DNA of 47,709 bases, from positions 1 to 47,709 of the forward strand of contig NZRL01000157.1 of NCBI GenBank assembly GCA_002696205.1, read 5' to 3'. Source of the DNA: Rhodospirillaceae bacterium (GTDB lineage: Bacteria > Pseudomonadota > Alphaproteobacteria > Rhodospirillales > Casp-alpha2). The position numbers were made by a program, and so were the translations under genes. A model generated the notes under the pieces. The model did not search any database. It was not told the DNA's origin and saw only the letters and a list, made by a program, of their open reading frames with translations. Shown piece by piece: positions 2,600 to 9,682 of this stretch. How positions within the stretch are numbered: the first letter of the stretch is position 1; each line of letters opens with the position of its first letter.

Positions 2600-3415
2600 C
2601 TATTTACCGGGTCGTTTTTCGGCGAGAATCTTGGCAGCCAACTTGAGCGCCTCGGCATTCGGCAAACCGGGTTTCATGCGGTCGTCGTAGAGCACCCGCA
2701 GCAGCCACCTGTCCGGATCGCTCAGTTCGAGCACCTTGTTCTTGTCGTTGAACAACGACCATTCCAGGTCGGACACGTCGTTCGGCAGCCCCATAAGCTG
2801 GGTGGTCTCCTCGACAATGCAGGTCGCCAAGAACTTCTTCGGATCGACCAGACGGTTGCCGTACTTCGTCTGAGTTGCGACCTCGGCGGCAAAGGCAGCG
2901 TAGGCGAAGGTAAAGGCCCCAGTTTTCTTGCTGTTGATGGCGCGACCGTGGCACATGCCCTCCCCCGACAACCGGGCGGTGTCGGCGGCCTTAAAAACGC
3001 CCTTCGTGTACTTCTCAACCATCGCCGGAAGCTCGGCCTTCGGCGCCCAAAACAGGACCATATTAAACGGCGTCCGGCGGTAGCTTTTCGGCAGCCGCCC
3101 GGCGGCGCGCAAGCCTTCGGAATAAGCCAGATTGATCGCCAACCCGGTCTCCAGACTGAGATCGCGCAGATGGTCGACGATCTGAGATTCGAACTCAGGC
3201 GGATACCCTTTACCCAGGATGGCGATCTTCAGCGGGCGGTCCCAGCGGATCAGCCGTGAGGCTTTCTGATCCTTGTACTCCCGCCCGAAGACCACCAAGT
3301 CGAACGCCTCGACAAGACCCTGGTTGCTCACATCCTGGGCTCGCGCGTTGGACGTCACTGCGCTTAAGAGGGGCAGAAGACAAGCAAGAACCAGGGCGAG
3401 GGCAGAAAATCGCAT
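2600..3415 (-). CDS. DUF2927 domain-containing exported protein
   Basis: A 271-residue protein with an N-terminal signal peptide (about residues 1-26, hydrophobic core LALVLACLLPLLSAV, cleavage likely after NARA). The C-terminal half carries the DUF2927 pattern: a conserved CIVEETTQLMGLPNDV segment followed by SLFND and a LLRVLYDDRMKPG stretch. Known family members are uncharacterised secreted or periplasmic proteins; the EExxQ-like segment recalls a zincin-type helix but lacks HExxH, so protease activity should not be assumed. It starts 23 bases after the stop of the upstream EAL-like gene and is the last gene of that four-gene operon, which is its main functional clue. Confidence 0.8.
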   Translation of the reverse strand: MRFSALALVLACLLPLLSAVTSNARAQDVSNQGLVEAFDLVVFGREYKDQKASRLIRWDRPLKIAILGKGYPPEFESQIVDHLRDLSLETGLAINLAYSEGLRAAGRLPKSYRRTPFNMVLFWAPKAELPAMVEKYTKGVFKAADTARLSGEGMCHGRAINSKKTGAFTFAYAAFAAEVATQTKYGNRLVDPKKFLATCIVEETTQLMGLPNDVSDLEWSLFNDKNKVLELSDPDRWLLRVLYDDRMKPGLPNAEALKLAAKILAEKRPGK

Positions 3416-3438
3416 AAGCTATCCTAACAAGGAATGGC

Positions 3439-4620
3439 CTAGCGGACCATGTCGTCGATGTGAAAGCCTTGGAACATGGTGATGCCGCAGGCATGGCCCG
3501 TCTTGATCGCCATTTCGTCGTCGACGCGGGCGAGAACCAACACGGTGCCGCGCTGTTGCAGGCTATGAACCGTTTCCTTCAACGCGGGCAGGACCGTCTC
3601 CGCCCCCGGCCGCCAGAAAATCTTCGCCAACTTGGCGCCGAGACGCGGCAGGTCGAGCACGCCCAGGCTATCCGGGATGATCGCGTCGATGGCGATGGTG
3701 CCGCCGCGCTGGGTGATCAGTTCCGACGCCGTCTGGAACTGATCCCAGTTCTGCAGGACGTTCTCGGCGCGGAATTCCAGAACCAGGCTGCTCAGCGATT
3801 TCTCGCTTTTTTCCAGCAGGCTTTGGAACGAATGAGTGAACACGGTCTCGACGTTCAGGTTCAGCGACGCCTTGGCGCGGTCCGGATTGACCTCGTCGAA
3901 ACATTCGATGAGCATCTGATCGAGCGTTCGGGTCAGGTGCTGGAACACGAGCCCGGCCCCCCGGAAATCGACGCCCGTCAGGATGTGCTGGCGGATCATT
4001 TCGACGGAGATGAAGTATTCCTTCATCACCGGCATGGGCGCCTTGCCCGGCGTGATCAATGCCGTGACCTGGGAGCGGATGAAGTTTTCCGTGAAGGTCT
4101 TCTTGCCCATCTTGCGCATGCCGTCGCGCACGACCTGAATATCGCTTTCACGCAGCGGCCGCGAATCGCCGGTGGCGACGCCGGCTTCCTTGGCGCGGTC
4201 GTCGAAGGTCTGCAGGAACTTGATGGCATTCTGGATGCGGCCCTGCAGCGGGATGATCCGCAGCATGCGCGACTGATCGATCTGTGAGAAATATTCGGAG
4301 AAATTCTGCTGGATGACCCGGATCAGGTCGACCTTGAGTTCGGACGTCCATTCCATCTGATTGTACTCGTTGAGCTTCATCAGAAGAGCGGTATCCGTAT
4401 TGGTCAGCCGATAGACTTCGGCGCCGCGACGTTCGCGCGACCGTTCATAGGACTCGTCGGTCTTCTTGCGAAGCTCCTTGTCCTCTTCCTCGGACATCCC
4501 GAGGCTCGAAAAGCTGACGAGAATCAGATGGTTGGGTTCTTCCGCCCCACCCTTCCAATTCTTCAGGCGGGTCAGAAGCTTAAGATGGTCGCCACCGCCG
4601 CTGGAGGTCGTTTCAGCCAT
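3439..4620 (-). CDS. Degenerate GGDEF/EAL-like protein, paralogue 1
   Basis: A 393-residue cytoplasmic protein, third in a tandem of three diverged paralogues. The C-terminal 200 residues follow the EAL phosphodiesterase fold order: SLNLNVETVF (like the INLS strand, N254), LVLEFRAEN (like ELTE, E282), GGTIAIDAI (like IDDFG, D312), LAKIFW (like LKID, K333), TVLVLARVD (like VIAEGVE, with R365 replacing Glu) and MFQGFHID (like QGY, Q384). The EAL glutamate, second ELTE glutamate, second Asp of DDFG and AEGVE glutamate are missing, so c-di-GMP hydrolysis is not expected. The N-terminal 100 residues resemble a shortened GGDEF fold (YRLTNTDTALLMKL) without the active loop. The frame opens with TTG at 4635, but ATG 4620 has GGAGAG five bases upstream and is preferred. 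The EAL assignment is by eye. Confidence 0.7.
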   Translation of the reverse strand: MAETTSSGGGDHLKLLTRLKNWKGGAEEPNHLILVSFSSLGMSEEEDKELRKKTDESYERSRERRGAEVYRLTNTDTALLMKLNEYNQMEWTSELKVDLIRVIQQNFSEYFSQIDQSRMLRIIPLQGRIQNAIKFLQTFDDRAKEAGVATGDSRPLRESDIQVVRDGMRKMGKKTFTENFIRSQVTALITPGKAPMPVMKEYFISVEMIRQHILTGVDFRGAGLVFQHLTRTLDQMLIECFDEVNPDRAKASLNLNVETVFTHSFQSLLEKSEKSLSSLVLEFRAENVLQNWDQFQTASELITQRGGTIAIDAIIPDSLGVLDLPRLGAKLAKIFWRPGAETVLPALKETVHSLQQRGTVLVLARVDDEMAIKTGHACGITMFQGFHIDDMVR

Positions 4621-4758
4621 AAACTCTCCAAACAAGTCTCAATTCGAGATTAATCAGGTTAATACGATGTATTCCCTGCAAGAACAATGCCCCCCGGGGG
4701 TTTCTCGTAACAGACCGGTCATCGCCCTGAAATATGCAATAGGTCTAGGGCGGGAAAG

Positions 4759-5946
4759 CTACAGCATCATGCCTTCGACATGCAGGCCCTGGAAGGCGGT
4801 GATGCCGACCTCGCGCCCGACCTGAAGGCCCAATTCGGAATCGACGCGGCACAACACCACGATGCAGCCCGCCTCCTGGGCCTGGCGGATGTTGGCACGG
4901 TTGCGCGCCAGATCTTCCATGCCGGATTGGCGCCAGGCGATCTTTGCGATATTGGCATTGAAGCCGACCAGATTGATCACGCCGAGCGCCGCCGGGTCGA
5001 TGGTATCGACGGCGATGTTCCCGCCGAGTGCGCGCACGGTCGCCTGTGCCGCCTGGTATTTGCGGAGATCGCGCATGATGTCGGCCATGCGCAATTCGAC
5101 AATCACGTTGCTGAGCTTGGCGTCCCCGTTGGCTTCGATGAACTTCTGAAAGGCATTACCGGCGACCGATTCCAAGGTCAGGTTCAAGGCGCATTTGGCG
5201 CCCGACGGATTGAACAGCTTGTGCATGCCCAGCATCAGCCCGTCGAGCGTCAGGGTCAGCTGGGGAAACAGGGGGTCGGATTCGTGAATGGCGACATTGT
5301 TCAGGATGTCAGAGCCCAACAGGTCCAGGCGGACGTAATATTCGCGGGCGATGGGCACCGGCGGCTTGCCGCCGGAGATCAGAGTGATCGACTGGCCCTG
5401 CACGTAAGTTTCCGCGAAGGCCTTGTCGCCGGTCTTGGCATAGAGCGAACGCAAGGTCTGAACGTCCGACGCATTCAGGGGGCGGGTCCCGTCGGCGCCG
5501 GCGATCACCCCGGCTTCCTTGGCCCGCTCCTCGAAAGCTTCGAGGAAACGCAGGGCACCCGCCATCTGGGTCGTCATATCGATCGTCCGGACGATCTTGG
5601 TCTGATCAACCTCGGAGACCTTCTCCGGCGCCTCTTCCTGAACGACCTTGAGCAACTGCATCTTCAATTCCTGGGGCACCTCCATCCGGTTCATTTCCGT
5701 GAGATTGCAGACCAGGGCGATGTTGCTGGGCGACAGCTGATAGGCCTCGCCGCCGCGCACCCGCGCGATACGGGCGTGCAGTTCGGCGATTTCATCCATC
5801 AGGATGTCATCGTCCTCGGGCAGGCCGAGTTCGGAAATATCAACCAGCAGCAGGGTGTTCTGATCGCTTTTCTTCGATCCCATGCCCCGCAGTTTCTTTA
5901 GGAGGTCGACGGCGTCGCCCGCCATCGGTGAAGACCCGAATGCCAT
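4759..5946 (-). CDS. Degenerate GGDEF/EAL-like protein, paralogue 2
   Basis: A 395-residue paralogue of the proteins on either side. It keeps the same order of EAL-like elements: CALNLTLESV, NVIVELRMADI, GGNIAVDTID, NIAKIAW, CIVVLCRVDSE and AFQGLHVEG. As in its relatives, the residues that bind metal in true EAL phosphodiesterases are largely replaced, whereas the N, first E, first D, K and Q positions persist. The N-terminal half again has a GGDEF-like pattern (LLLVDISELG, then YQLSPSNIALVCNL). It is the most divergent of the three at the C-terminus and lacks the Cys-Ile loop of the others. It starts at ATG 5946, 47 bases after the upstream paralogue, and is followed by a 138-base spacer. 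Binding c-di-GMP or a protein partner is a plausible role; no function is established. Confidence 0.7.
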   Translation of the reverse strand: MAFGSSPMAGDAVDLLKKLRGMGSKKSDQNTLLLVDISELGLPEDDDILMDEIAELHARIARVRGGEAYQLSPSNIALVCNLTEMNRMEVPQELKMQLLKVVQEEAPEKVSEVDQTKIVRTIDMTTQMAGALRFLEAFEERAKEAGVIAGADGTRPLNASDVQTLRSLYAKTGDKAFAETYVQGQSITLISGGKPPVPIAREYYVRLDLLGSDILNNVAIHESDPLFPQLTLTLDGLMLGMHKLFNPSGAKCALNLTLESVAGNAFQKFIEANGDAKLSNVIVELRMADIMRDLRKYQAAQATVRALGGNIAVDTIDPAALGVINLVGFNANIAKIAWRQSGMEDLARNRANIRQAQEAGCIVVLCRVDSELGLQVGREVGITAFQGLHVEGMML

Positions 5947-5993
5947 ATCGTGCTTCCGCTCGTATCCTCTTCAGACGCCGGACCGGTGCGGCC

Positions 5994-7226
5994 TCAAGCG
6001 CCGCCTTTTCCGGCCGCACCGCCGGCCAAAAGCTTGTCCACGTGATATCCTTGAAACAGGGTGATGCCAAGGCTTTGGCCGATCTTGACCGCCTGTTCAT
6101 CGTCGACATGCGCCAGCACCATGACCGTGCCGCCTTCCTGCATGGCACGTATGTCGTCCTTGGCCTGCATCAGGTCGTCGACCGCGTCGCCGTGCCACAT
6201 GATCTTCGCCATCTTGACCTTGAGCCGGTGCAGGTTGACGACACCCAGCGTCTCGGTCTGCACGTTGTCGATGGCAACCGACCCGCCTTTGTTGGCGATC
6301 AGCTCACAGGCCGTCTGGAACTGGCTGAAATGCTGGAACATGTTGTCCTGACGGAATTCGACGATCACGCCCTTGAGCCCGGCGTCGCCGCCGTCACGCA
6401 GATAATGTTCGAAGGCGTTCGTGAAGACGGTCTCGACGTTCATGTTGAGTGAAGTTTTCGCCCGTTCCGGCGTGACCGCCCCGATGCAATACAGCAGCGC
6501 CTGATCGAAGGTCAGGGTCAGTTGGTTGAAGACGTTCCCCGTGCCACGGAAGTCGACGCCCCGCAGGACGTTCTGCTTCAACAGGTCGATGCCGACGTAA
6601 TATTCCGTCATCGCGGGGACCGCCGGCTGGCCCGGCTTGATCATCGCGGCGGTTTGCGAGCGGATATAGCGTTTGCCGAACTCGCGCGGGCCCAGCTTGC
6701 GCAGGACGTCGCGGAGTTTCTGGATATCCTGCATGTTGAGCGGCCGCTCGCCCGTATCGGCGTCGGCGGTGGTTTCCTTGCGCCGGTCGCCATAGGCCTC
6801 GAGGAACCGCTTGGCCGTATCCAGACGCGTCGCCAAGTCGATCGGCCGGATCAGACGCGCCTGATCGATCTTGGAAAAATGTTCGGGCAGGTTGTGCTGG
6901 ATCACCCGCATGAGGTCGACCTTCAGGTCCATCATGGTTTCCATGCGATTGAAATCGGCCAGCTTGATAAGGATCGCCGTGTCCAGGGCGGACAGCTTGT
7001 AGACGGCGCCGCCACGGGCATGGACGAACGTGAGGAAGGCTTCTTCCAACGCCTGCTGCACGCCCTCTTGTTCGCCGGGCATGCCGAGCGTCGTGAAAGA
7101 GATCAGCAACAGGTGATTGACGTCGGAATCAACCGCCGACCAATGGTTGAGCGCCTCCATCAGGCCATGGATGTCGCCGATTTCGCCGCCGGGCTCGCCG
7201 CCCGACCCGGCATTCAGGATATCCAA
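5994..7226 (-). CDS. Degenerate GGDEF/EAL-like protein, paralogue 3 (operon head)
   Basis: The first gene of the four-gene minus-strand operon, encoding 410 residues if translation begins at TTG 7226. The frame is open to a GTG at 7247, but the intervening codons (reading R-K-R-R-R-R) are simply a purine-rich AAGAGGAGG Shine-Dalgarno, six bases before the TTG. EAL-like elements in order are TSLNMNVETVF, GVIVEFRQDN, GGSVAIDNV, KMAKIMW, TVMVLAHVDDE and LFQGYHVDK. The catalytic glutamates and the second Asp of the DDFG motif are absent. The N-terminus has LLLISFTTLGM and VYKLSALDTAILIKL, matching the GGDEF-like half of its relatives. It is closer to paralogue 1 than to paralogue 2. A scaffold or ligand-sensing role is inferred from the loss of catalytic residues. 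Confidence 0.7.
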   Translation of the reverse strand: MDILNAGSGGEPGGEIGDIHGLMEALNHWSAVDSDVNHLLLISFTTLGMPGEQEGVQQALEEAFLTFVHARGGAVYKLSALDTAILIKLADFNRMETMMDLKVDLMRVIQHNLPEHFSKIDQARLIRPIDLATRLDTAKRFLEAYGDRRKETTADADTGERPLNMQDIQKLRDVLRKLGPREFGKRYIRSQTAAMIKPGQPAVPAMTEYYVGIDLLKQNVLRGVDFRGTGNVFNQLTLTFDQALLYCIGAVTPERAKTSLNMNVETVFTNAFEHYLRDGGDAGLKGVIVEFRQDNMFQHFSQFQTACELIANKGGSVAIDNVQTETLGVVNLHRLKVKMAKIMWHGDAVDDLMQAKDDIRAMQEGGTVMVLAHVDDEQAVKIGQSLGITLFQGYHVDKLLAGGAAGKGGA

Positions 7227-7308
7227 CCTTCGCCTCCTCTTCCGCACCGGGTATGCCCCGGCATCGGAACCACCGCGGCCGTTGTCCGGCCACGGTCCCT
7301 TTGGGCGC

Positions 7309-7373: not shown

Positions 7374-8954
7374 TTAACCGGCGGAGCGATGCGGCAGTGG
7401 CAACGAAATCACCGCCTTGAGGCCGCCGCCCACCCGGTTTTCAAGGCGAATGTCCCCGCCGTGCGCCCGCACGACGGTCCGCGCGATCGCCAACCCCAGG
7501 CCGACGCCCCCGGTTTCCTGACTGCGTGAGGATTCCAGCCGGGTGAACGGCTCGAACACGGCATCGAATTGGTCTTCCGGAATGCCCGGGCCGTCGTCTT
7601 CCACCGAGATCAGGATTTCCGTCTCGCCAGCCTGAACGCCGATCCGCGCCTCGGCCCCATAGCGCGCGGCGTTTTCCGCCAGATTCCGAACCGCCCGCTT
7701 GATCGCCGTCGGCTGACACGTCAGGCGTATCGGCGCGCCGGCACCGTCGAAACGGGCCGCCATGCCCGCGTCCGTCAACTCATGCGCGACCTCGGCGCAG
7801 AGCTTGGCGACGTCTTCATCCCGCGCCGCCTCGCCGCCCTGGGCATCCCGGGCGAAGGCGAGGGTCGCTTCGGTGATGCGCTCCATCTCGTCCAGGGTCT
7901 TCAGGATCTTCTCGCGGTTTTCGGCGTCGTCCTTGATGAATTCGGCCCGCAAGCGCAGCGAGGTCAGCGGCGTGCGCAGGTCGTGGCTGATCGCCGCCAG
8001 CATCGCCGTCCGGTCGGCGACGAAGCGGTGCAGGCGTTCCTGCATGCGGTTGAAGGCATCGGTCGTACGGCGGATTTCACCGGGTCCCGTGGGCGTCAGG
8101 GGGGCCACGGCCTCACCTCGGCCCAATGCATCGGCCGCCGCGGCCAAATCATTCAACGGCCGGGTCAGGCGGCGCACGATCAGGATGCTGACCAGCGAGA
8201 TCGCCAGAACCGTCACCAGCAACACGGTCATCGTCCGCCCACCCCACAGGCGCGCCGGTTTGGCCGCCAGTTCGCCGTTCAGCCAGCGCCCGTCGCCAAG
8301 CGGCACGGACAACACCAGTCCGGCAGGCAACATGCGGGGCGGCCGGTCGGCGCCGCCGGGGGCGCGGAACCCATCCGGCCCCGGAATCATATGGCCGGGC
8401 CCGTGATCGTCTCCCGAATGGTCGGCGCGGTGACGCTCATGATCGTCGTCGTCTTTTCCGTGATCGTCATCGTGGCGAGGGCGGTCGTGCCAGCCGCGAT
8501 GCCAGCGGCGCAACAGGTCCGGCATGGGGAACGGGCCCCAATCCTCGCGGTCCACCACCCGGACCAGGACCGGGCCGGGGCGCGGCCCATCGAGCCGGTC
8601 CATCAACGTATCCGTGAACAGATTGTCGCGGGCGTCCGGCCCGTCGCCGGCGGCGGCGCCGGGCGCGACCCAGAACCGAAGACGGGTGCTGGTCGCCGCC
8701 GCCAACATGGATTGCGTCAGGGCCGGATCCTCGGGGCGCGGCAGCAGATCGAGCATCCGGACCAGCGAGGCGGTTCGCTGCATGACCAATTCGCGCCGCG
8801 CGTTGATGATCGCTTCATGCCGCTCCGAGGCGAAAAACGCGGCGCTGACGAGCTGCGCGATCAGCAGCGCCGCCAGCAGGGACAGGATCAGCTGACCGGC
8901 CAGGGAGCGCGGCCAGAGACGGCGAAACCAGGGCGCGGGGGTCAGAGCGTTCAT
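7374..8954 (-). CDS. Sensor histidine kinase with His/Asp-rich periplasmic region
   Basis: A 526-residue membrane kinase that pairs with the response regulator upstream. TM1 is about residues 19-41, TM2 about 241-261; the periplasmic domain lies between. HAMP follows (RRLTRPLNDLAAA), then the H box AISHDLRTPL with phosphoacceptor H324, the N box RNLAENAARYG, and G boxes VEDDGPGIPE and GGVGLGLAIA. This is the EnvZ/RstB class. Residues 151-188 of the periplasmic loop hold nine histidines and twelve acidic residues, an obvious candidate metal-binding segment. The frame extends to 9278, but ATG 8954 overlaps the regulator stop by four bases (ATGA), giving coupled translation and placing TM1 near the N-terminus. 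Signal identity (Ca, Zn, Ni, Cu) is unknown. Confidence 0.92.
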   Translation of the reverse strand: MNALTPAPWFRRLWPRSLAGQLILSLLAALLIAQLVSAAFFASERHEAIINARRELVMQRTASLVRMLDLLPRPEDPALTQSMLAAATSTRLRFWVAPGAAAGDGPDARDNLFTDTLMDRLDGPRPGPVLVRVVDREDWGPFPMPDLLRRWHRGWHDRPRHDDDHGKDDDDHERHRADHSGDDHGPGHMIPGPDGFRAPGGADRPPRMLPAGLVLSVPLGDGRWLNGELAAKPARLWGGRTMTVLLVTVLAISLVSILIVRRLTRPLNDLAAAADALGRGEAVAPLTPTGPGEIRRTTDAFNRMQERLHRFVADRTAMLAAISHDLRTPLTSLRLRAEFIKDDAENREKILKTLDEMERITEATLAFARDAQGGEAARDEDVAKLCAEVAHELTDAGMAARFDGAGAPIRLTCQPTAIKRAVRNLAENAARYGAEARIGVQAGETEILISVEDDGPGIPEDQFDAVFEPFTRLESSRSQETGGVGLGLAIARTVVRAHGGDIRLENRVGGGLKAVISLPLPHRSAG

Positions 8955-9682
8955 CGTTCGACGATTTCGACAGGGGCGGCGAAGCTGTAGCCGCCGCCCC
9001 AATGGGTCTTGATGAATTCCGGATTTCGGGCGTCTTTTTCGACCTTCTTGCGCAGGCGCGAAACCTGATTGTCGATGGCCCGGTCGAACAGTTGCGCCGT
9101 GCGCCCGCGCGTCAGGTCGAGCAATTGATCCCGGTTCAATACCCGGCCCGGGTGGCGCAGGAAGACGCCGAGCAATAGACTTTCCCCGGTCGAAAGCGCG
9201 ACCGCCTCGCCCTGCCCACCGCCGCCGGTCAGGGCCTGGGTCTGCGGATCGAACAGCCAATCGCCGAACCGGTAGCACTGGCCCGGCGGCTCACCCGCCG
9301 CCGGCGGCAGCGTTGCCGTCCGCCGCAGCACGGCCTTGATACGGGCCAGCAGTTCGCGCGGATTGAACGGTTTGGTGACGTAATCGTCAGCGCCCATTTC
9401 CAGGCCGACGATGCGGTCGGTCTCCTCGGCCATGGCGGTCAGCAGAATGACCGGCAGATCCGTCGTCGCCCGCAGATGGCGGCACAGCGACAGGCCGTCC
9501 TCGCCCGGCATCATGATATCGAGGACGACCAGATCGATGGCGCTGGTCTCCAGGGCCTGCCGGGCGGTGGCGGCGCGGTCGGCCGTGGTCACCCGGTAAC
9601 CGTGCTCTTTCAGGTAACGCGCCATGGCGTCCCGAATGTCCGGATGGTCGTCGACGACCAGAATATGTTCGCTGTCGGTCAT
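8951..9682 (-). CDS. OmpR-family response regulator
   Basis: A 243-residue two-domain regulator. The receiver holds the acidic pocket ILVVDDHPD, phosphoacceptor D55 in LVVLDIMMPGEDG, the switch Thr in LLTA and K104 in DDYVTKPF. The C-terminal winged helix (about 140-238) has the typical LSTGESLLLGVFLRHPGRVL and RAIDNQVSRLRKK recognition region. It is the first gene of a two-gene operon with the kinase and is transcribed away from the EF-hand gene; the 214-base space between their starts probably holds operators for both. The RstA/TctD-like grouping is a guess from motif style. Confidence 0.93.
   Translation of the reverse strand: MTDSEHILVVDDHPDIRDAMARYLKEHGYRVTTADRAATARQALETSAIDLVVLDIMMPGEDGLSLCRHLRATTDLPVILLTAMAEETDRIVGLEMGADDYVTKPFNPRELLARIKAVLRRTATLPPAAGEPPGQCYRFGDWLFDPQTQALTGGGGQGEAVALSTGESLLLGVFLRHPGRVLNRDQLLDLTRGRTAQLFDRAIDNQVSRLRKKVEKDARNPEFIKTHWGGGYSFAAPVEIVER

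Follow-up and report, generated by a model that had tools for sequence, protein, structure and literature searches.

Degenerate GGDEF-EAL receptors have previously been known as single cases, which differ in the site residues that they have lost. YdiV is a protein-protein adaptor, CsrD is anchored in the membrane, and the EAL domain of FimX is part of a larger sensory protein. This FimX domain, known from P. aeruginosa and Xanthomonas, is non-catalytic and binds PilZ according to titles in the PDB; PMC5301497 describes it as lacking the DDFGTG motif. LapD of P. fluorescens and V. cholerae is degenerate in both domains, and PMC3032553 presents it as a HAMP protein that spans the membrane and has a domain in the periplasm, in which the Arg of the EALxR motif (R450) lies at the centre of the site for cyclic dimeric GMP (c-di-GMP); the P. 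fluorescens protein has kept this Arg and carries Lys in place of the EAL Glu. For PA3825, PMC5301497 assigns Glu39, Asn98, Asp130 and Asp160 to the first metal site (M1), and to the second (M2) contacts by Asp161 and Asp183 (with Mg) and by Asp160 and Glu217 (with Ca); M1 is filled and M2 empty in the PA3825-pGpG complex, and all sites are filled in the CC3396 complex. Here we describe a family of EAL proteins, represented by three consecutive genes (T1, T2 and T3) on contig NZRL01000157.1 of the Rhodospirillaceae assembly GCA_002696205.1, that, judged by alignment, retains the complete M1 site and has lost the residues that are specific to M2. The term window is used below for the whole stretch of 47,709 nucleotides that was analyzed; the source genome is 3.78 Mb in size and 83.9% complete.

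An earlier note, made from the DNA letters alone, had recognized the three consecutive genes and a downstream gene for a DUF2927 protein, and the coordinates together with the Pfam match of the latter confirmed this arrangement (Table 1). Compared with T1, sequence identity is 36% for T2 and 46% for T3. The Pfam EAL model (PF00563, cut-off 31.3 bits) scored 32.3 bits with T1, 26.4 with T2 (E 5.2e-6) and 19.9 with T3 (E 5.2e-4), so that only T1 passed; T2 and T3 are placed in the EAL family by descent, being homologues of T1 that fall into one clade with it. T1 thus belongs to the same family as the PF00563 phosphodiesterases, both by hidden Markov model and by fold. AlphaFold2 structure prediction was run on T1 (alignment of 56 rows) and on the DUF2927 protein (6 rows). 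The T1 model had a predicted local distance difference test score (pLDDT) of 89.1 and a predicted template modelling score of 0.66. When it was compared using Foldseek, the top matches were GGDEF-EAL didomains, the first being V. cholerae LapD (6pwk, E 4.7e-13), and isolated EAL domains ranked after them, from E 3.8e-8; the fold matches included LapD, FimX and PA0861. In the VIA comparison, T1 aligned with the EAL domain of LapD (3pjt) over 212 residues with Z 17.9 and a root mean square deviation (rmsd) of 3.1, and with the FimX EAL domain at Z of about 17. The T1 model hence contains an EAL-type triosephosphate isomerase barrel, the outcome that had been anticipated for a structure prediction. 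LapD is the top fold match, with many EAL proteins within Z 1–3 of it; active EAL enzymes rank close behind the receptors (Z 15–17.6), and fold alone therefore cannot single out receptors.

The N-terminal half of T1–T3 is probably GGDEF-like, as the earlier note had proposed. The T1 model is in line with this assignment: the VIA didomain alignments begin at T1 residue 4–15 and run to at most 339 residues with rmsd 10–14, compared with about 220 residues for the EAL part alone, and the alignment with 6pwk gave Z 18.1 and rmsd 13.1 over 332 residues. Deviations of this size would be as expected from a different hinge. Profile evidence did not add to it: a test of the N-terminal half against a GGDEF profile (hhalign, with five GGDEF rows of 12 matches) gave a non-significant E of 0.12, and no Pfam GGDEF match to T1–T3 was obtained.

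To place the active-site residues, canonical EAL domains from the source and related genomes were brought into a global profile alignment with the family; 27 canonical rows were left as a control from 32 EAL loci, at least two of which had been read in a wrong frame, and residues were counted over 121 family rows, with gaps set aside and in T1 numbering. The claim that Asn, the first Glu, the first Asp, Lys and Gln of the EAL motifs survive in all three copies was borne out by the alignment, but the companion claim, that the EAL glutamate had been lost along with most metal ligands, was not. E208, which reads EYY in T1 and EYF or EYY across the family, sits on the EAL Glu. Q191 aligns to the Gln of the QP motif, with three extra residues between it and E208, and the placement of E208 was identical in all alignment runs, before and after the wrong-frame canonical rows were dropped. 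Local alignments start past this stretch and so give no test of the placement, which follows from the global alignment, the predicted strands (188–195 and 203–211) and the invariance of the residue.

All four M1 ligands are conserved in the family (E208, N261 and E290 each in 121/121 rows and D320 in 120/120), as are K341 (119/119) and Q392, the Gln of the QG motif (119/120). All three M2 ligands are gone: the second Asp of DDFG was found in 0/120 rows, the Asp of KxD in 0/119 and the first Glu of AEGxE in 0/120, and the second Glu of ELTE occurs in no family row that has a residue there. The corresponding counts in the canonical control were 27/27 for the EAL Glu, 25/27 for the second Asp, 27/27 for the KxD Asp and 25/27 for the AEGxE Glu. 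Active EAL phosphodiesterases possess the M2 ligands and the ELTE and AEGxE glutamates, and their absence from T1–T3 sets these proteins apart from the enzyme kind. The pattern extends to a class-wide sample of 21 hand-picked proteins, from 20 places among the class-wide matches, in which E208 was present in 20, N261 in 21, E290 in 19 and D320 in 20, and each of the three M2 ligands in none. Position 373, next to the lost AEGxE Glu, is Arg in 108/120 rows and His in nine, among them T1.

Based on the fold of the T1 model, the residue pattern, the phylogeny, the selection and the gene order, we propose, at a probability of about 0.5, that T1–T3 are soluble EAL proteins without hydrolytic activity, which bind a guanine dinucleotide and thereby serve in nucleotide sensing. 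They would be alphaproteobacterial pseudo-phosphodiesterases in which a probable GGDEF-like domain precedes an EAL barrel. A barrel with M1 (E208, N261, E290 and D320), K341 and the QG Gln, and without M2, should be unable to cleave c-di-GMP, yet there could be room in it for one metal together with one guanine dinucleotide, and the bound state would be passed to partner proteins as a conformational change. The conserved R373, which is His in T1, could replace the charge of the missing second metal. In the alignment, V. cholerae LapD also has the second DDFG Asp and the first AEGxE Glu replaced: the protein in 6pwk, a structure solved with c-di-GMP, carries Asn at the former position and Arg beside the latter. 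A stable non-enzymatic role, suggested in the earlier note, gained support from purifying selection, from the family-wide site losses and from the presence of LapD and FimX among the nearest folds. Hydropathy maxima of 1.09–1.49 revealed no membrane segment in T1–T3, and no HAMP match was obtained at E up to 10; unlike LapD, they are thus soluble by hydropathy and have neither a transmembrane HAMP input nor a periplasmic output domain. In contrast to FimX, no PilZ-like partner was observed for T1–T3.

Several findings weigh against this proposal. The EALxR Arg is present in only 11/121 rows (the eight T2 proteins and three others; one further row has Lys) and in 0/21 proteins of the class sample, versus 27/27 canonical rows, which is the opposite of the arrangement in P. 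fluorescens LapD. Since LapD binds c-di-GMP without the EAL Glu, retention of M1 is on its own no predictor of binding. The DDFGTG loop is unrecognisable in T1–T3, a feature shared with FimX. One protein of the class sample lacks E208 and two lack E290. Lastly, profile searches of the contig gave no EAL or GGDEF match beyond T1–T3.

The strongest rival, which we regard as a real but minority possibility, is that the barrels bind no nucleotide and act as protein-protein signalling adaptors in which the M1 residues hold the fold together. The loss of the EALxR Arg from most rows favours such a role, as do the neighbours of the single-copy homologues. In a 19-row single-copy subclade, the next gene downstream, on the same strand, belongs to one cluster at 17 loci, and the one member tested (from locus L106) proved to be a Cache-HAMP-SpoIIE phosphatase (Pfam SpoIIE, E 4e-48); at ten other single-copy loci, on seven distinct contigs, a STAS-cluster gene adjoins in the opposite orientation (Table 1). 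These neighbours suggest regulatory protein partners. Against the adaptor role stands the near-invariance, in the family and the class sample, of the four metal-ligand positions together with the Lys and the Gln, as structure alone is unlikely to keep exactly M1.

Hydrolysis of another nucleotide by one-metal or altered chemistry is improbable in our estimation. M1 is intact, and according to PMC5301497 the M1 metal of PA3825 holds the phosphate and a putative attacking water; however, none of the M2 ligands, the second ELTE Glu and the first AEGxE Glu occurs in any family row that has a residue at the position. We give still less credence to CsrD-like regulators, whose GGDEF-EAL core would recruit or control an RNase on a small RNA. 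CsrD (NF008281) was the only NCBIfam match of T1–T3 (E 2.1e-4, 0.044 and 0.016, respectively), but the similarity is weak and local, with scores of 12–20 bits against a cut-off of 663 over 70–89 residues of the EAL part, and the lack of a membrane segment in T1–T3 does not agree with the membrane anchoring of CsrD.

The breadth of the family was examined in a set of 41 genomes (the source genome and its relatives), 38 of which gave matches, in three arrangements: a tandem pair, a single-copy gene and the triplet. The triplet, with open frames for all three copies, occurs in 8/8 genomes of the window's genus. Two adjacent family genes were found at 20 loci, and this pair is present in most relatives of the order (e.g., L036:1356-3981, beside cobT- and heptose/sugar-nucleotide-like genes by eye), including the source genome, where it lies on contig C182 beside genes that by eye resemble cobT and sugar-nucleotide genes. 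A tree of 121 rows was built by a quick method with support from the SH-like approximate likelihood ratio test (SH-aLRT) only, after exclusion of fragments shorter than 300 residues and of rows identical in the last 150 residues. T1, T2 and T3 each formed one clade (support 100) and together one clade (SH-aLRT 95), which nests within the single-copy group, and a branch of support 100 separates the pair from that group; the deep branches of the single-copy group are weak (80–84), several being open. The tree topology places the triplication on the stem lineage of a single genus, starting from its single copy, and the order-wide pair and single copy indicate that the family is older than the genus.

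A search across the class, with scoring of the top four candidates from each genome, found matches at E <= 1e-10 in 103 of the 387 genomes sampled. Nine Azospirillum plasmid records, Azospirillum brasilense among them, hold relatives that are 26–28% identical to one member of the pair and are annotated as hypothetical or not annotated. The losses had been thought to precede or accompany the triplication. Paired, single-copy and class-wide relatives were found to share them, which rules out a recent or triplication-linked loss of catalysis; by these comparisons, the triplication is one genus's elaboration of the family and not the origin of the loss.

The ratio of nonsynonymous to synonymous substitution rates (dN/dS) was determined for six pairs drawn from seven of the eight genus genomes. 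Across all three copies it was 0.025–0.103 in the four closer pairs and 0.11–0.26 in the two wider ones; all three copies are under purifying selection, in agreement with the earlier view that a role, rather than decay, explains them. The 121 homologues in one tree and the dN/dS of 0.025–0.103 also place the likeness of T1–T3 beyond chance. That T1–T3 are decaying phosphodiesterase pseudogenes, as the missing catalytic residues and the sub-threshold Pfam scores of T2 and T3 might suggest, is rejected on these dN/dS values and is further contradicted by the open frames in 8/8 genomes and by losses common to the class sample.

Copy-specific departures were scored at positions where conservation reached at least 80% of the 97 other rows. 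T1 departs at His373 (8/8 genomes), T2 at Asn/Ser82, Ala259 (8/8) and Thr263 (7/8), among others, and T3 at Ile216 and Leu275 (8/8); T2 also has the EALxR Arg, which T1 and T3 lack. One genus would have tripled its single copy, after which each copy changed at conserved sites of its own, a course in keeping with a division of labour or a hetero-oligomer. The departures are consistent with subfunctions or with a hetero-oligomer and are proof of neither.

On the minus strand the order of transcription is response regulator, histidine kinase, T1, T2, T3 and DUF2927 (Table 1), with gaps of 47, 123 and 23 nucleotides between T1 and T2, T2 and T3, and T3 and DUF2927, respectively; T1–T3 are presumably co-transcribed with the DUF2927 gene. 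Between positions 2300 and 7500 no sigma-70-like promoter was found, and terminator-like sites were not in excess. The T2-T3 spacer holds a tentative site that resembles a sigma-54 promoter; GGCATTGTTCTTGC with its GG-N10-GC spacing is kept in six of the eight genus genomes. GG-N10-GC sites were counted in 13/136 cases versus 2.5 in shuffles, a figure that does not constitute independent evidence, given the relatedness of the sites and the presence of duplicates among the loci. Across the whole window, Rfam at gathering thresholds gave no match and a tRNA search found none.

Table 1. Features of the T1–T3 locus in the window and loci of single-copy homologues with conserved neighbours
Feature	Position or loci	Strand	Remarks
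T1, 410 aa	5994..7226	minus	Degenerate GGDEF-EAL protein; alternative GTG start at 7247
T2, 395 aa	4759..5946	minus	Paralogue of T1
T3	3439..4635	minus	Paralogue; ATG at 4620 is the probable start, TTG at 4635 possible
DUF2927 protein, 271 aa	2600..3415	minus	Pfam E 1.1e-29
Codon of T1 E208 (EAL glutamate, in motif EYYV)	6603..6605	minus	Computed position
GGCATTGTTCTTGC motif, GG-N10-GC	4678..4691	minus	T2-T3 spacer; sigma-54-like spacing; tentative
Histidine kinase	7374..8954	minus	HAMP, HisKA, HATPase_c; directly upstream of T1; start by eye
OmpR-type response regulator	8951..9682	minus	By eye; upstream of the kinase
SpoIIE-cluster loci (17)	L099, L101-L107, L109, L111-L113, L115, L116, L121, L122, L124		
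STAS-cluster loci	L015/L088, L044/L092, L055/L118, L087, L090, L093, L117		Pfam STAS tested in L092

The product of the last gene matches DUF2927 (PF11150) above the cut-off (104.5 versus 26.2 bits) and has a hydrophobic, signal-peptide-like N-terminus (AxA before QD by eye; hydropathy peak of 2.29 at residue 3). The earlier note had named this protein as the partner of the triplet and as a route to an envelope function. Within the genus the gene lies 8–50 nucleotides after T3 in 8/8 genomes, but the partnership is not an old one: no DUF2927 of the triplet's cluster appeared among the neighbours read at single-copy and paired loci, several of these contigs ending nearby and the neighbours coming from a simple open reading frame caller by which genes may be missed or starts wrongly set. 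In the two genomes (G024 and G011) that have both on one contig within reach, the single-copy gene is about 43 kb away from the DUF2927 match. For genera that lack the triplet, the nearest DUF2927 relatives were inspected in six genomes: three have them close to FAH-hydrolase-, DUF1611- or epimerase-like genes (by eye), kinds that also occur by the triplet, and in two or three of the remaining three a secA-like gene adjoins (by eye). The link may have begun as a neighbourhood. A direct route of the LapD-LapG kind to DUF2927 was rejected on two grounds, the lack of a membrane segment in T1–T3 by hydropathy and the lack of DUF2927 of the triplet's cluster beside the single-copy and paired loci read; the first ground also leaves T1–T3 with no direct route to the envelope.

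When the locus is compared with the nearest genome, the DUF2927 protein and its counterpart share only 48% identity, as against 98, 94 and 97% for T1, T2 and T3, and the DNA identity to that genome over positions 2601–3400 is 49–69% per 100 bases; the rest of the first 12 kb is mostly more than 90% identical, with a minimum of 72% in the T2-T3 spacer. This pattern indicates an exchange of the DUF2927 sequence in place, the slot being kept and its occupant different. No donor was found in the 41 genomes, the best outside match being the counterpart in genome G006 at 53%, and a scan of viral contigs gave no DUF2927 relatives.

The AlphaFold2 model of the DUF2927 protein was weak (pLDDT 68.7), and Foldseek returned no match at E <= 0.001, the top rows being mostly non-metzincin. 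In the VIA comparison, 36 of 50 rows were metzincin proteases (matrix metalloproteases and snake-venom proteases) and three were YbeY-type, at Z 6.1–8.6, a range that the tool calls common. The metzincin zinc motif is HExxHxxGxx[HD]. The DUF2927 pattern EExxQxxGLxND...S[IV]F...D..LxxLYD has a spacing like that of HExxHxxGxxH...Met-turn, and the zinc motif itself is absent, its place being taken by EExxQxxGLxN in the window protein as in the remaining members of the genus that were read. EExxQ occurs in all but two of 38 aligned rows (33 distinct), and the rows that keep it have no His at the three ligand places. Two DUF2927 paralogues vary here: L234:119-955 has His at the Gln position of EExxQ, and L222:1042-1869 is without EE. 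On the strength of the VIA comparison and the motif, DUF2927 may have a metzincin-like fold in which the zinc motif has been rewritten. An extended form of our proposal, which we consider unlikely, holds that this is a class-wide 'M1-only' EAL family in which Arg replaces the second metal, the barrel thereby capturing one guanine dinucleotide uncut, possibly pGpG, and that in one genus T1–T3, with the EALxR Arg in T2 only, form a hetero-oligomeric receptor made with an exported metzincin-like pseudo-protease.

The open-access literature was searched for precedents. No work on DUF2927, or on DUF2927 with an EAL domain, was found; among the matches listed, no title or abstract start dealt with this EAL family, and 'degenerate EAL' with 'Rhodospirillales' returned only work on GcrA/CcrM. 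A limited look-up of terms in PMC7646526 was without match. The family is real and conserved and, as far as the open-access literature searched shows, unnamed.

Roughly one in four genomes sampled across the class carries the family, and in the rows examined M1 is kept and M2 erased. Members occur in cultured relatives (Azospirillum and Novispirillum, the latter with a pair in Novispirillum itersonii ATCC 12639, locus L128), and the genus-specific triplication provides three natural variants of one protein. For DUF2927, a metzincin-like fold whose zinc motif was rewritten is now a testable idea. The pattern of a retained M1 and an erased M2 would separate the holding of a ligand from its cutting.

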